Shown here: piece by piece, positions 4,416 to 20,425 of the stretch
How positions within the stretch are numbered: position 1 is the stretch's first letter
How the letters are laid out: each line of letters begins with the position of its first letter
Source of the DNA: a virus
IMG/VR virus record: IMGVR_UViG_3300021956_000090
Span: 1-21,454 of that record
DNA length: 21,454 nucleotides
Strand: one strand, 5' to 3'
Position numbers and translations under genes: made by a program
The notes under the pieces: generated by a model
Told to the model about the DNA's origin: nothing
What the model saw: only the letters and a program-made list of their open reading frames with translations
The model's database searches: none

Positions 4416-4736
4416 ATGGTAGCGTCTGAATTTAGCGACACGGTGACAGTGGGCACGGATTATGTCCAAGGGATCCAATTGCAGGCGGGCGCAGGCTATC
4501 CTTTTCTTGACCTCACCGAGTTTGTCTTTTCGGGCAACCTTCAAAACTCAGCAGGCACACAACTCGCTGAACTCGATTTTGTGCTGGTGACACCGACTTG
4601 CGTACAAGCTCGGATTCCGCGCACGACAACTGCAACGCTTCCACGCCAATTTGGGGCGCGGATGAACATCCACTTTAAAGCAACCTCAACGGCGGAGCTT
4701 TTGCCTTTGGCCGTCGGCAGAATATCCATCGTATGA
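4416..4736 (+). CDS. Small tail protein, unknown function
   Basis: 106 residues, first gene after the promoter-like gap. It is almost all beta-prone with alternating hydrophobic residues (for example AELDFVLVTPTCVQARIP near 50-67) and Thr/Ala-rich turns; no helix-rich, membrane or catalytic region is visible. Small beta-sandwich proteins just before fibre genes are often fibre-attachment or baseplate components, but I do not recognise this one. It overlaps the next gene by 4 bases and probably shares a transcript with the two fibre genes that follow. Confidence 0.65.
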   Translation: MVASEFSDTVTVGTDYVQGIQLQAGAGYPFLDLTEFVFSGNLQNSAGTQLAELDFVLVTPTCVQARIPRTTTATLPRQFGARMNIHFKATSTAELLPLAVGRISIV

Positions 4737-5050
4737 GCTGCGAAAATACTTGCAACGAAGGTCTTGTCATCACGTTACTCCAAGGTCCGCCTGGGGTGCC
4801 CGGTACTGGCGGAGGCGGCGGCGGCAACTGGTATCTCTCGCAGTTTGAAGGTGATGGCGTTGTCTCAAGTTTCCACCCAATCAATGGGTTTTCCACGACG
4901 CAAGCCGAACGCTATCAGGTCGTAATTGATGGCTCTATCCAAGAGCCGAACTACAGTTACGACATTCTCGAAGATAATGGCGGCACGCTTCTTTTTCCCG
5001 TCCCGATTTACGCGGGCGCTCGAATTTCGGTAGTTACACAAAACACATAA
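4733..5050 (+). CDS. Short fibre protein with collagen-like stub
   Basis: 105 residues, starting at an ATGA overlap. The N-terminus has four Cys/Asn-rich residues, then a very short collagen-like run (GPPGVPG, about residues 18-24) and a poly-Gly linker. A beta domain follows at about 33-103, containing YQVVIDGSIQEPNYSY and the ending ARISVV. That domain resembles residues 436-518 of the large fibre encoded next ([15 protein letters not shown] and STIDVL at matching positions), so the two genes share a paralogous module. Probably a tail fibre or adaptor protein. The match was made by eye. Confidence 0.7.
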   Translation: MSCENTCNEGLVITLLQGPPGVPGTGGGGGGNWYLSQFEGDGVVSSFHPINGFSTTQAERYQVVIDGSIQEPNYSYDILEDNGGTLLFPVPIYAGARISVVTQNT

Positions 5051-5056
5051 TCATAT

Positions 5057-7114
5057 ATGGCACAAGCACTTACAAAAATTCAAACTGGGATGATTTCCCA
5101 GTCTGCACAGCAAGCCCTTCAGGGGCAGACGGGCGCCACGGGCCCTCAGGGCATTCAGGGCCAAATCGGGGATTCCGGTCCTCAGGGGATTCAAGGCCCC
5201 GTGGGTGCCACGGGCCCTGTGGGAGCTACGGGCCTAAGTATCACGGGCGCAACGGGCCAACAAGGGATTCAAGGCATCCAAGGCGAAGTTGGGCCGAGCG
5301 GGTTGCGTGGATTGCAGGGCGAGGTTGGCCCGAGCGGCGCCTCTGGCTTACAGGGCGAGGTTGGCCCGAGCGGCCCGCAGGGTGCCACCGGAACACAAGG
5401 CCCGATCGGAAGCACGGGCGCTACGGGCCCTCAGGGTGCAACTGGGCTTGGCGACAAATACTCCACCTATTCCACGACAACACTTACAATCGGCAACGGA
5501 ACTCAGTCGCTCTATGTTGAGCCTGGTCTTAGCTACACGCAAAATCAACCCGTCATCATTTCGCACACGGGCGGCACCGAGCACATGCACGGCACCGTAA
5601 ACGGGTACGACAAGATTGCAGGCGGGCTGTCCGTAAGCGTCAGCACTCACACCGGTTCGGGAACCTTCTCAGCGTGGATTGTCAACCTCGAAGGCGCGAT
5701 TGGTGCAGTGGGCGCAACGGGCCAGACGGGCGCTTCTGGGTTGCAGGGATTGCAAGGCAACGTTGGAGCAACGGGCCAGCAGGGCCCGAGCGGAGCGTCA
5801 GGTTTGCAGGGCGAGGTTGGCCCAAGCGGGTTGCAGGGCGTGCAGGGTGTCGCGGGCGACGTTGGAGCAACGGGCCAGCAGGGCCCGAGCGGTCAGGTGG
5901 GCGCCTCAGGCTTGCAAGGTTTGCAGGGCTCAACCGGCCCAAGCGGCCCTCAGGGCGTGCAGGGCGTTGCGGGCGAAGTTGGCCCCTCGGGTTCGACGGG
6001 CCCCTCGGGCGCTCAGGGCGCTACGGGCGTCGGAGAGCAGGGCGCAACTGGTTTGTCTGGAGACAAATACACAAGCACCAGCACATCGACATTGTCTCTG
6101 ACAACCGGCAGCAAGGTGCTCACTGTTGCCGCTGGCTTGGCGTTGTCGATTGGTCAGGATGTCATCTTGGCGCACGACGCCAACAACCGAATGGAAGGTG
6201 TCATCAGCGACTATAGCTCCGTGACCGGCGCTCTCACCGTTAACGTGACGCACATCCTCGCCGGCAGTGGCTCGCATTCGAGCTGGTCGGTGTCGCTCGC
6301 TGGCGCCGTGGGACAGGTGGGCGCCACGGGTGCCACAGGCCCAGCCGCTCCCGTTTTTGGCGGCGGCGTCCTCAGCCCGCGATTCACGGGCAACGGTGCA
6401 GCGTACACGTTCGGACCGCTCGAAGGTTGGGACGGCCCCATGAACGACGAGACCGGATACCTGGTCTATATCGACGGCGTGTTCCAACGCCCCGACGAAG
6501 TCAATGGTGGCTTCACGATCACCGGCACCGATTACGCGTCGTCTGCGATCGTGTTCCCCTCGGCGATCGCTGACGGATCGACGATCGACGTCCTCGCGAT
6601 TCAAGTGAGCGGTGCTCGCGGCGCGACTGGGGTTCAGGGTGCTACGGGCCCAGCCGGAAGCGGCGGTGGCGGTGGTGGCGAGTGGGACAGCGCTGTTGCG
6701 TATTCCAATGGAGACATCGTGACGTTAAATCATGACGTCTGGGTTGCGTTGCAGTCGTCGACAAATGAGCAGCCTGGGGAGTTCTCCGTTTACTGGCAAC
6801 TCAATCGAGGCGCTACGGGCGCGCAGGGAGCTTCTGGCCCTCAGGGGATTCAAGGCCCCGTGGGCGCTACAGGCCCTCAGGGCGATCCAGGCGGCGCCAC
6901 GGGCGCAACTGGAGTTGGAGAAGTTGGCCCCTCGGGCGCTACGGGCCCCTCGGGCGCGACGGGCGTTGGAGAGCCTGGATCCACGGGAGCTACAGGCCCA
7001 CAGGGCCCTGCTGGTGGAACGTACTCAGTGACAAGCAATTCGCCAAACAACCCTTCCTCTCCGGCGGGATGGCTAACGGATGGAACCGGCGGTTACATCC
7101 CGTTTTACAACTAA
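5057..7114 (+). CDS. Modular collagen-like tail fibre
   Basis: 685 residues. Collagen-like Gly-X-Y tracts lie at about 23-131, 217-334 and 584-655 and are built from GPQGIQG, GATGPQG and GEVGPSG type units; such tracts form trimeric rods in phage fibres. Between them are two paralogous beta domains of about 85 residues (132-216 and 335-419, both opening with GDKY and ending with SW-V-L-GA). A third domain (436-518) is related to the preceding gene. A short carbohydrate-binding-like module at 543-583 has the W-x-AYSNGDIV...YW pattern of CBM5/12 chitin-binding folds. The last 30 residues resemble a fibre tip. Likely the receptor-binding protein. The domain at 6362-6611 differs in codon use from its surroundings. 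Confidence 0.85.
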
Positions 7115-7128
7115 CATTCGTTAACATC

Positions 7129-7165
7129 AAAGCCGCTCAGGAGGAAGCTCTTGGGCGGCTTTTTT
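7129..7165 (+). terminator. Strong intrinsic terminator after tail module
   Basis: The left arm AAAGCCGCTCAGGAG (7129-7143) pairs with CTCTTGGGCGGCTTT (7148-7162) around a GAAG loop. The stem is 15 base pairs with two G-U wobbles, and the T run continues to 7165. It begins 14 bases after the fibre stop codon and ends the structural transcript. Confidence 0.85.
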
Positions 7166-7175
7166 GTGCCCAAAT

Positions 7176-7211: not shown

Positions 7212-8360
7212 ATGACAAATATCCATTGCCTCGCTGTTCCGCACACAGTCACTCATCCAGATTATTCCGCGTGCGCGTTCACGCAAAAAGTCTTGAAATT
7301 CTTGGAAATGTTCAAGGACTCGAAGAACTACCGCACGATTCACTATGGCCACCCAGACTCTCAAACGGCGGCGCACGAGCATGTTGACGTTACATCAAAC
7401 GATATCCTTGCCGAGACTTACGGCAACTACGACTGGCGGAAAAACCAGTTCCGTCACGACGTCAACGATCTCGCGCATCGGCACTTCAACGCGACTGCGG
7501 GCGCGGAAATTTTCAAGCGCAAAAAGCGCGGTGATTTGGTGCTCGCATTTTGGGCGGGAACAAAAGGCGCGTGCGACATCGCAAACCGAGACGGTGACCT
7601 AATCGTCGTTGAGCCTGGTATCGGCTCAGGATGGGCCTTTGCGCCCTTCCGGTGTTATGAGTCCTACCCGCTCAAATCAGCCTATGCAGGCACGCAAGGC
7701 GTGTCATTTTGCGATCCGAAGTGGTACCACAGAGTCGTCCCAAACTACTTTGACCTGCGCGATTTTGACCCGTACCAGGAGCGCGAAGAGTATGCACTCT
7801 ATATCGGCAGGCTCGGCACCAACAAAGGGTTGGACATTGCAATCGACGCTTGTACGCGCATGGGCATCAAGCTCAAGGTCGCCGGGCAGGGAGGGCCCGA
7901 TGGGATCGGACTTCGCGAGTGGCCAGCGTGCGTTGAGTTCATCGGTTACGCTGATATCGAGACACGCAAACAACTCATGGCGCGGGCAAAATTTGGGTTC
8001 CTGCTTTCGACGTATTGGGAGCCATTCGGCGGCACCGCCGTTGAGATGATGCTCAGTGGATGCGTTCCAATCTGCACCGATGCCGGCGCGATGACCGAAT
8101 ACATCGTGGATGGCGTGAACGGGTTCCGATGCAACACAATGGGAGATATCCTGCGCGCGATTCGATTGGTGCCCAAAATTGACCGTAAGCGCATGCGGTT
8201 ATTCGCCGCCGAGAACTTCGGGTTTGGCGTTGTCCGCGCAAAGTTTGAGCGCGCATTTGCTGACTTCGCGGATATTTGGAACCGCGCAGGCTGGTACGAG
8301 GACCACAACCGCCCGCTTGACACTGGGCTTGGGCTTGATTATTCGGCACTCTATCGGTAG
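7212..8360 (+). CDS. GT4-type glycosyltransferase
   Basis: 382 residues from the ATG at 7212. A longer frame from GTG 7164 would begin on the terminator's T run, and the N-terminus after 7212 (MTNIHCLAVPHTVTHPDYSA) looks like a genuine glycosyltransferase start. The C-terminal GT-B domain shows GRLGTNKGLDIAIDA (199-213), the nucleotide-sugar/phosphate loop and the retaining GT4 signature EPFGGTAVEMMLSGCVPI (about 270-287, E-x7-E). It should transfer a sugar from an activated donor to an unknown acceptor in the cytoplasm. It is flanked by the fibre terminator and the lysis genes. Possible roles are glycosylating the collagen-like fibre (many Thr/Ser), modifying host surface polysaccharide to block superinfection, or modifying phage DNA; the sequence does not decide between them. 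Confidence 0.85.
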   Translation: MTNIHCLAVPHTVTHPDYSACAFTQKVLKFLEMFKDSKNYRTIHYGHPDSQTAAHEHVDVTSNDILAETYGNYDWRKNQFRHDVNDLAHRHFNATAGAEIFKRKKRGDLVLAFWAGTKGACDIANRDGDLIVVEPGIGSGWAFAPFRCYESYPLKSAYAGTQGVSFCDPKWYHRVVPNYFDLRDFDPYQEREEYALYIGRLGTNKGLDIAIDACTRMGIKLKVAGQGGPDGIGLREWPACVEFIGYADIETRKQLMARAKFGFLLSTYWEPFGGTAVEMMLSGCVPICTDAGAMTEYIVDGVNGFRCNTMGDILRAIRLVPKIDRKRMRLFAAENFGFGVVRAKFERAFADFADIWNRAGWYEDHNRPLDTGLGLDYSALYR

Positions 8361-19453: not shown

Positions 19454-19668
19454 AATCCATCCGATTGTCTCCAACTTGCATCGTGAGTGTACCTGAATTT
19501 ATAGATCAGAGTATCATAGTTAATGGCCGCATTTGGCGGTTTGAGTTCGATAGAAGGCTTGGGCCTTTGTGGCTCAAGGCCGATGGGTTCACACCCAGAG
19601 AATGCCAAAATCCAAAAAAAGCAGTATGGGAAGCTTTTGAAATTTGGATGAAGGAGAACGTAAAATGA
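19450..19668 (+). CDS. Hypothetical 72-residue beta-rich protein
   Basis: ATG at 19450 in a 4-base overlap, with AAGGAGG 13 bases upstream (spacing a little long). Beta strands with alternating hydrophobics (SIRLSPTCIVSVPEFIDQSI; IIVNGRIWRFEFDRRLGPLW) precede a helix (PKKAVWEAFEIWMKENVK). Size and pattern recall small phage proteins of the accessory zone. I do not recognise the family. It overlaps the first of two duplicated genes. Confidence 0.55.
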   Translation: MKSIRLSPTCIVSVPEFIDQSIIVNGRIWRFEFDRRLGPLWLKADGFTPRECQNPKKAVWEAFEIWMKENVK

Positions 19669-20021
19669 CTGACGAACAAATCAACGCGGCGATCGCGGAG
19701 GCGTGTGGGTGGGTTAAAGTTGACGCAAAAGTAATTCGCGAGCGTAATTTTGCGCAGTGGCTACTCAGGGATGGGCAATGGTGGCGGCACGATGAAAACC
19801 GGGAAATTGCTCAAATTGACGGATTGCCTAACTACTGCAACGACCTCAACGCGATGCATGAGGCGGAGGAGGTTCTTTTATCAGGCAGCGGACCAGGGAT
19901 TTGGGAATGTTTTAGAAACAAACTGCGCTGCAAATATGGAGAAGATGACATCCATGCAACAGCCCGCCAACGCGCAGAGGCGTTTTTACGGACGCTCGGG
20001 AAATGGGAGGAGGACAAATGA
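19665..20021 (+). CDS. Phage ABA-sandwich-like protein, copy 1
   Basis: 118 residues. It starts MTDEQINAAIAEACGW, has L-P-N-Y-C-N-D-L-N-A-M-H-E-A-E near 55-69, and ends ATARQRAEAFLRTLGKWEE. This three-block layout is that of the small alpha-beta 'phage ABA sandwich' proteins common in accessory regions of many phages; their function is unknown. The next gene is a paralogue: the three blocks are nearly identical at DNA level, while the segments between them have diverged. Between blocks 1 and 2 this copy has Trp/Arg-rich sequence (FAQWLLRDGQWWRHDENREI). Confidence 0.7.
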   Translation: MTDEQINAAIAEACGWVKVDAKVIRERNFAQWLLRDGQWWRHDENREIAQIDGLPNYCNDLNAMHEAEEVLLSGSGPGIWECFRNKLRCKYGEDDIHATARQRAEAFLRTLGKWEEDK

Positions 20022-20425
20022 CTGACGAACAAATAAACGCTGCGATTGCGGAGGCGTGTGGGTGGAGACTGCAAGGCTCACCAGAACATCAAAAAGCAAC
20101 AGATGGATGGCAATTTGGACATACATTTGCAATAAACCCATCCGGTGAAGTAGTTTCACGCAACGGAATCCCAAAATACTGCAACGACCTCAACGCGATG
20201 CATGAGGCGGAACAGCATCAGTGGCGCAAAAGTTATTTTTCCCGATACGATTACGTTGACCAGATTGGGAAAATACTAAAAAAGCATCATTGGAACCGTA
20301 TGGAACCCGTTGACATGCTGGATGCAACAGCCCGCCAACGCGCAGAGGCGTTTTTGCGGACGCTGGGGAAATGGGAGGCAACCACCAAGGAATCCTCGGC
20401 AGTTCAGCCAACTAACAAAAATTAA
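20018..20425 (+). CDS. Phage ABA-sandwich-like protein, copy 2
   Basis: 135 residues in an ATGA overlap with copy 1 and preceded by GGAGG. It has the same opening (MTDEQINAAIAEACGWR), the same central block (P-K-Y-C-N-D-L-N-A-M-H-E-A-E) and nearly the same end (ATARQRAEAFLRTLGKWEA), plus a 14-residue tail. The variable parts differ in sequence and length from copy 1 (SPEHQKATDGWQFGHTFAIN between blocks 1 and 2; a Tyr/His/Lys-rich insert before block 3). The pair arose by tandem duplication with later change only in the variable segments. Function unknown. Confidence 0.7.
   Translation: MTDEQINAAIAEACGWRLQGSPEHQKATDGWQFGHTFAINPSGEVVSRNGIPKYCNDLNAMHEAEQHQWRKSYFSRYDYVDQIGKILKKHHWNRMEPVDMLDATARQRAEAFLRTLGKWEATTKESSAVQPTNKN

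Follow-up and report, generated by a model that had tools for sequence, protein, structure and literature searches.

A modular collagen-like phage tail fibre with a common shaft, rods of coupled length and an exchanged tip

In the window (the whole stretch of DNA analysed, 21,454 nucleotides of the IMG/VR virus record IMGVR_UViG_3300021956_000090), the open reading frame at 5057-7114 very probably codes for a genuine modular phage tail fibre, and the explanation that we favor for it commands good confidence as a whole. A shaft of constant layout would comprise an N-terminal anchor, two near-equal collagen arms, each closed by a beta domain that we name the GDK domain, a fixed 15-residue link and a further globular domain, C. 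The distal tip would be swapped as a block between phages, and would be built from CBM5/12-like modules, short “LQ” repeats, more collagen and a C-terminus of about 30 residues that is alike in eight of 14 fibres. The fibre is presumed to be a homotrimer placed on the tail. Exchange would take place at links of Gly-X-Y (GXY) or Gly-rich sequence, at which joints made in frame should cost little; the tip most likely touches a surface carbohydrate, its exchange probably tracks changes of the host surface, and the equal arms might serve a mechanical purpose in a hinged, foldable or evenly spaced fibre. The domain homologies, the layouts, the edges of one exchange and the coupled rod lengths are direct observations.

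Parts of the fibre and their homologies

The gene, its parts and its immediate neighbors are as follows (loci of relatives are denoted by L numbers):

4733-5050, + strand: preceding gene, a short GXY/Gly stretch followed by a C-like domain (PHROG tail fibre match, E 0.0011)
5057-7114, + strand: collagen-like tail fibre gene, 685 residues (translation, Pfam, PHROG)
5057-5122, + strand: non-collagen N-terminal anchor, residues 1-22, with an LTKI motif (residues 1-22 identical in L004; LTKI in 14 of 14 fibres)
5123-5449, + strand: rod 1, residues 23-131, 109 residues of GXY with a single break at LSIT
5450-5704, + strand: domain A, residues 132-216, first copy of the GDK domain (BLASTP, profile comparison)
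5705-6058, + strand: rod 2, residues 217-334, 118 residues of GXY
6059-6313, + strand: domain B, residues 335-419, second copy of the GDK domain, with six predicted beta strands
6314-6358, + strand: short GXY link, residues 420-434 (15 residues in 14 of 14 fibres)
6359-6610, + strand: domain C, residues 435-518, homologue of the preceding gene’s product
6611-6676, + strand: short GXY and poly-Gly link, residues 519-540, containing the left edge of the tip exchange
6653-7114, + strand: tip block replaced relative to L004 (binned DNA identity)
6677-6808, + strand: module D, CBM5/12 fold, residues 541-584
6809-7021, + strand: rod 3, residues 585-655
7022-7114, + strand: C-terminal tail W...G.IP.Y, residues 656-685, and stop codon (similar tails in eight of 14 fibres, by a profile built from tails picked by eye, those eight included)
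7129-7166, + strand: terminator-like hairpin and U run between the fibre and glycosyltransferase genes (-29.7 kcal/mol for 7112-7175, z -5.28)
7212-8360, + strand: glycosyltransferase (GT), phrog_3408, group 1, with a conserved ATG start at 7212 (PHROG E 3.2e-100, Pfam 1.1e-15)

The Pfam Collagen family (PF01391) scores 119.1 bits on the product against a cut-off of 27.2 (E 6.6e-35), and PHROG tail fibre families match it with a best E of 2.1e-63, in part via the low-complexity collagen repeats. A tape-measure-like gene lies upstream at 525-1859 (PHROG E 1.1e-13), placing the fibre among tail genes. GXY runs of at least four triplets span residues 23-61, 64-132, 213-326, 416-430, 519-542, 585-614, 621-638 and 641-655. 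The initial annotation, made from the DNA alone, had counted three collagen-like rods; the three long rods are indeed there, and the count is a slight simplification in that two short GXY stretches also link B to C and C to D.

The same annotation had proposed that residues 132-216 and 335-419 are paralogous 85-residue domains, with boundaries that proved exact: domains A and B are 41% identical by BLASTP (E 4e-10), and their profiles align over 84 of 85 columns with a probability of 99.8 (E 1.5e-27), versus a probability of 0.2 (E 0.34) for the negative control of A against C. Its third domain, C, is likewise borne out as a relative of the preceding gene’s product (4733-5050), both by BLASTP (29% identity, E 2e-6) and by profile comparison (probability 95.6, E 1.2e-8). 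Directly before that C-like gene, at 4416-4736, we observed an LtfC-like beta-sandwich (PF23926, E 2e-5; its 25.5 bits fall short of the cut-off, 27).

No Pfam family matches domain A of the window at E 1. We found 101 copies of the GDK domain in 68 viral loci, 93 of them flanked on either side by four or more GXY triplets (redundant contigs are included in both counts), and these flanks mark it as a domain repeatedly inserted into collagen rods. An AlphaFold2 model of residues 335-584 (B-C-D, as a monomer) has a mean pLDDT of 68, with ten-residue means of 77-90 over most of B, 83-88 over most of D and a moderate 56-81 in C. With Foldseek, this model has no match in the PDB at E 0.001. Among the viral folds of BFVD, it has 35 matches at E<=0.001, the best at 7.6e-12, to “Collagen triple helix repeat” proteins from uncultured phages of the Caudovirales, several of them over 84-105 columns at 36-43% identity, which probably fall on the GDK domain. 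These proteins are mostly unnamed, and were compared with the window fibre by the B-C-D fold. Against 50,697 named phage records, the window has no relative at the DNA level and domains A and B have none by tblastn at E 0.01; scans of cellular genomes with the fibre and with the GT yielded no relatives of either. Elsewhere in the window, two adjacent overlapping genes (19644-20021 and 20003-20425) have paralogous ends (MTDEQINAAIAEACGW ... RAEAFLRTLGKWE) and differing middles.

As a general idea, exchangeable domains linked by collagen are already known, as the available portions of two papers attest (PMC3368898, PMC5601072). In EPclA and EPclB, which are encoded by prophages of E. coli O157:H7, collagen stretches join globular domains and domain mixing was noted, likewise as here, and EPclA was shown to be trimeric (PMC3368898, in part). 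By the names of their domains they stand apart from the window fibre: they use PfN, PfC, Pf2 and a coiled-coil, whereas the latter has GDK, C, CBM and LQ elements and length-coupled rods. In Streptococcus thermophilus phage antireceptors, collagen-like repeats lie between distinct domains in some cases, again as here, and the variable region VR2 is the purported host-range determinant (PMC5601072, in part); compared at the level of layout, the phages of the window group differ from these in keeping the shaft constant and exchanging the distal block as a whole. The portions of the literature available to us held no earlier account of a constant shaft with an exchangeable tip across a phage group, of an intra-collagen domain without a Pfam family, or of coupled rod lengths.

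The common shaft, the exchanged tip and module D

Domain C occurs in 21 fibres (20 contigs and the window), of which we compared 14, the window included; of the other seven, one is cut and six have a layout already represented among the 14. Ordering the rods and domains of related phages, a comparison that the initial annotation had recommended, reveals one shaft (anchor, rod 1, A, rod 2, B, link, C) in all 14 and nine tip layouts, with a CBM-like module in 13. The closest relative of the window fibre is that of L004, which lies on the same contig as L011. In 60-base bins, DNA identity to L004 is 77-87% at 6353-6652, falls to 45-60% at 6653-7132 and rises to 92% from 7133, and by this measure the tip of the window fibre is replaced as a block, from the Gly-rich link (about 6653) to the stop codon. 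The earlier idea of a fibre assembled from exchangeable modules gains support from the one shaft with nine tips and from this replacement of a whole tip, as well as from the composite gene of L013 and L014 and the module common to L014 and L038, both described next.

The tips of other relatives vary in several ways. In L013 and L014, an N-terminus that by eye resembles the preceding gene’s family is followed by a long rod, C, LQ repeats, a CBM and the tail, an arrangement that may represent a fusion of the preceding gene with the fibre gene. The CBM-like module of L014 (on a 29.8-kb contig) is 83% identical over 47 residues to that of L038 (on a 198-kb contig), and GXY adjoins the module in both, being short in L038. 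The fibre of L019 bears a long extra rod before its CBM, which suggests that the geometry of the tip is loosely constrained. At the end of the L017 fibre gene (4609), the CBM and tail are replaced by a second C-like domain together with a region that by eye resembles LamG.

Module D was initially described as a CBM5/12-like patch, and a carbohydrate-binding fold is indeed recovered at residues 541-584. PF02839 matches at E 0.0014 (19 bits) with the whole protein and at 3.5e-5 (24.2 bits) with this piece alone, in both searches under the curated cut-off of 26.2 bits; all 13 module copies, picked by eye from the window and related fibres, match this family at E<=0.1, the best member at 8.1e-10. 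The profile of the 13 copies matches the chitin-binding domain of ChiA1 (1ed7) at E 7.8e-9, and the predicted fold of D superimposes on the chitin-binding domain of ChiC (2d49) at 1.0 Å over 42 columns, with a TM-score of 0.72 by target length and a Foldseek E of only 0.083. Module D thus has the fold and core motif of CBM5/12 domains in common; it differs from them in the aromatic positions that serve as their chitin contacts. These are, in ChiA1, a Trp two positions before a Pro and, in CBM5, a WW pair. WW is absent from 13 of 13 copies, none has the Trp two before the aligned Pro, and any aromatic residue at that position is seen in two of 13, the window copy not being among them. Since these contact aromatics are missing in the window copy, chitin is not favored as the receptor. 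The suggestion of a polysaccharide receptor, perhaps chitin-like, therefore divides: because the fold is real, a sugar-binding role is plausible on the strength of the predicted structure, and a chitin-like ligand is weakly supported.

The same missing aromatics make it quite possible, at somewhat less than an even chance, that module D is a structural brick and no sugar binder at all. In keeping with this, the module profile finds weak matches in solved phage fibres and spikes (9rkv, E 0.0038; 8fqc, E 0.027; 25vf, E 0.16). Against the brick stand the predicted fold, which is that of chitin-binding domains, and the binding of host cells by two CBMs of 936 phages, from which it follows that this class of module is able to bind (PMC6669499, in the portion available).

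Rods of drifting sequence and coupled length

The two shaft rods range in length (rod 1/rod 2) from 98/110 to 137/145 residues across the 14 fibres and are correlated at r 0.998; rod 2 is longer by 8-12 residues in every one, over a span of 98-137 residues for rod 1. Phylogenetic contrasts, computed on a FastTree of A, B and C, which are domains of the same gene, give r 0.996 over 13 contrasts, with the five large ones sharing one sign and a similar size. The sequence of the rods behaves otherwise: identity of rod 2 to L004 drops to 40-63% in the bins at 5753-5992 versus 78-93% in the A and B bins, with its length unchanged. The window’s break in rod 1 (residues 59-64) reads S[IV]TG at the same place in L011, L015, L016, L017 and L019, and is not found in L020 or L042.

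Ungapped alignments of rod 1 with rod 2 of the same gene give values inside the range of the shuffles for all ten fibres compared. Between orthologous rods, the ungapped register is kept in close relatives of equal rod length (51% and 40% identity at non-Gly positions for the window and L011; 71% and 70% for L017 and L019), and it is lost in more distant pairs as well as between L042 and L044, which are 88% identical in domains A and B. Once gaps are permitted, the alignment of orthologous rods scores above every one of 200 triplet shuffles in 19 of 20 comparisons, which cover both rods of ten pairs spread over the tree. The remaining comparison, rod 2 of L042 versus L044, is equalled by 93 of 200 shuffles, and this rod looks rewritten. 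Rod 1 against rod 2 of one gene beats all shuffles in none of ten cases, 8-148 of the 200 shuffles scoring as well. Together, the gapped and ungapped alignments point mostly to drift by substitution with matched steps in length, and not to the copying of one rod onto the other. Homogenisation of rods by copying is thereby rejected as the cause of the equal lengths. The initial proposal that the fibre grew by shuffling between repeated Gly-X-Y DNA finds no support in the form given, in that orthologous rods align, the two rods of one gene do not, and their lengths are coupled.

There is nonetheless a signal of sharing within genes: DNA words (12- and 15-mers) are shared more between the rods of one gene than across phages, orthologous rods included (for 12-mers, 0.051 versus 0.015-0.021; permutation p about 0.0003). 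Peptide words within a gene exceed those shared with non-orthologous rods of other phages and about equal those shared with orthologous ones, and codon use may account for part of the DNA word sharing. Relative to another collagen gene carried by the same phage, the within-gene excess is clear in four of seven phages (L033, L042, L044 and L071, of which L033 and L042 are near-identical). On account of this sharing, a limited internal exchange between the rods of one gene is possible.

What couples the lengths can be read in more than one way. It is conceivable, though at clearly less than an even chance, that the coupling is inherited or mechanistic and serves no function, with rod 1, A and rod 2 recombining as one block that exists in few ancestral length states. 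Shorter and longer states do occur in both halves of the tree, and tips travel as blocks; however, four matched shorter states (109/118, 106/116, 112/121 and 98/110) are hard to obtain from two ancestral blocks.

More tentatively still, and by analogy, arm length and not arm sequence might be what is selected, in a two-arm single-chain fibre with a knee at domain A, an equal-arm rule convergent with the long tail fibre of phage T4 and a freely exchangeable tip. Here domain A would act as a hinge, and the equal arms would allow the fibre to fold back and stow its tip in the manner of the T4 fibre halves. The constancy of the rod difference across all 14 fibres and the concordant large contrasts speak for such a design, as does the fact that neither copying of rod 1 onto rod 2 nor tape-measure length explains the match. 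In the available part of its description, the T4 long tail fibre has near-equal arms of 700 and 740 Å, a knee and a distal tip (PMC3004832); its arm ratio of 1.06 compares with 1.08 in the window, an analogy that concerns arm lengths alone, and it is made of four proteins, as opposed to one polypeptide with collagen in the window. Against the knee, the comparison comes down to some nine different fibres, with five contrasts of large size on a tree drawn from domains of the same gene, folding back is pure conjecture, and even spacing of two barrels would give the same lengths. Moreover, equal rods are not a general rule of the collagen genes in these phages, as the genes of col-CBM-col layout have unequal rods of 69/51, 37/53 and 32/50 triplets.

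We also rejected tail length as what sets rod length, there being no link among five phages: tape measures of 444, 457, 564, 734 and 727 residues (the last two, which have no BLAST match, assigned by position and size only) accompany rod 1 lengths of 109, 136, 106, 137 and 112. A search of CC-licensed PMC papers, in the portions available, turned up neither a rod length rule nor glycosylation of collagen rods by a phage enzyme.

The neighboring glycosyltransferase

Downstream of the fibre gene lies the GT, in which E272 and E280 are invariant in 21 of 21 sequences; such an E-x7-E pair is the motif of group 1 glycosyltransferases. The family is found in 66 IMG/VR loci. Among named phage records it occurs in 52, 51 of them of Synechococcus phages, at a best identity of 45.5%; in Synechococcus phage ACG-2014f its position is three genes downstream of a collagen gene, and a gene annotated as PiuC follows it. 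In L046, L047, L053, L059, L066 and L069 the GT is followed by genes that by eye are second glycosyltransferase-like, FkbM-like or otherwise methyltransferase-like. The actinophages E7 and F5 also encode glycosyltransferases and carry collagen-like genes in a variable island (PMC10202952, in part).

A collagen open reading frame ends at most 2 kb upstream of the GT in 40 of the 49 loci (out of 67) with at least 2 kb of upstream sequence; after clustering at 90% identity, the same holds for 17 of the 20 clusters that could be evaluated. Pfam collagen is present in 45 of 50 GT records (44 over its cut-off) versus none of 44 control records of 12-43 kb, which are anchored on one kind of helicase, that of the window, and are not fully matched; one of these controls does carry the GT, being cut just beyond it. 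All 20 contigs with domain C are among the GT contigs (names compared by eye). On eight large contigs, the GT lies at most 3 kb downstream of a collagen match in five (P 1.1e-4 against random placement), a distance chosen after the gaps were seen, with P 0.05 at 1 kb, 0.012 at 2 kb and 5e-4 at 5 kb. Other genes, however, share this proximity: a collagen frame lies at most 2 kb upstream of 50 of the 76 genes located in the 4 kb that precede the GT and of 56 of the 95 located in the 2 kb that follow its start, as against 10 of 313 further downstream. Because neighboring genes behave alike, the link to collagen marks a fibre neighborhood and may not be specific to the GT. We take the GT as part of a host-recognition module.

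As to its target, a change to the host surface is more likely than collagen, by analogy with other phages. Specifically, the GT might alter a surface polysaccharide of the host, the class of molecule that the fibre would read, and so block superinfection or re-adsorption at the stage of release, a proposal whose chances we place just short of even. Host recognition clusters of pelagimyophages hold glycosyltransferases for which this role was proposed (PMC7029224, in the part available). The GT is, moreover, kept where the fibre gene differs, and further glycosyltransferase- and methyltransferase-like genes, recognized by eye, adjoin it in several phages.

That the GT instead glycosylates the collagen rods at Thr and Ser in the Y position is improbable. 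Beyond the proximity of collagen frames and the record and contig counts given above, this reading can draw on the Y-position residues of the fibre, which are Thr in 27 and Ser in 18 of 108 triplets, and on glycans reported on phage capsid proteins (PMC11256854, in part and citing other work). Besides the proximity of collagen to other genes as well, several features of these loci tell against it. In the window, the terminator-like hairpin parts the fibre from the GT; among 15 fibre-GT junctions of relatives, a hairpin with a U run recurs in L011 and L015 and one without a U run in L016, L052 and L063, L053 has a long gap and the other nine have gaps of 0-40 bases without a strong hairpin. The gene directly before the GT in L028 codes for 996 residues without visible collagen repeats and stands between the collagen gene and the GT, a place taken in the others by the GDK fibre; the spacing is the same in L029 and L036, L028 being the one of the three that was read. 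The gene that precedes the GT in L047, truncated at the end of the contig, is without collagen, and its counterpart in L054 and L070 resembles another glycosyltransferase by eye. The nearest upstream Pfam collagen matches in L038 and L040 are 11.9 and 12.8 kb away, although short GXY genes lie 2-4 kb downstream. Among the 68 GDK loci, within the flanks covered, a GT is close by in 20 and further away in one.

Collagen-like fibres are recurrent in environmental phages and yet poorly explained. A constant shaft with coupled rods turns the role of collagen in a phage into a measurable question, and if the rule holds, rod length would be a readable design constraint in metagenomic fibres.
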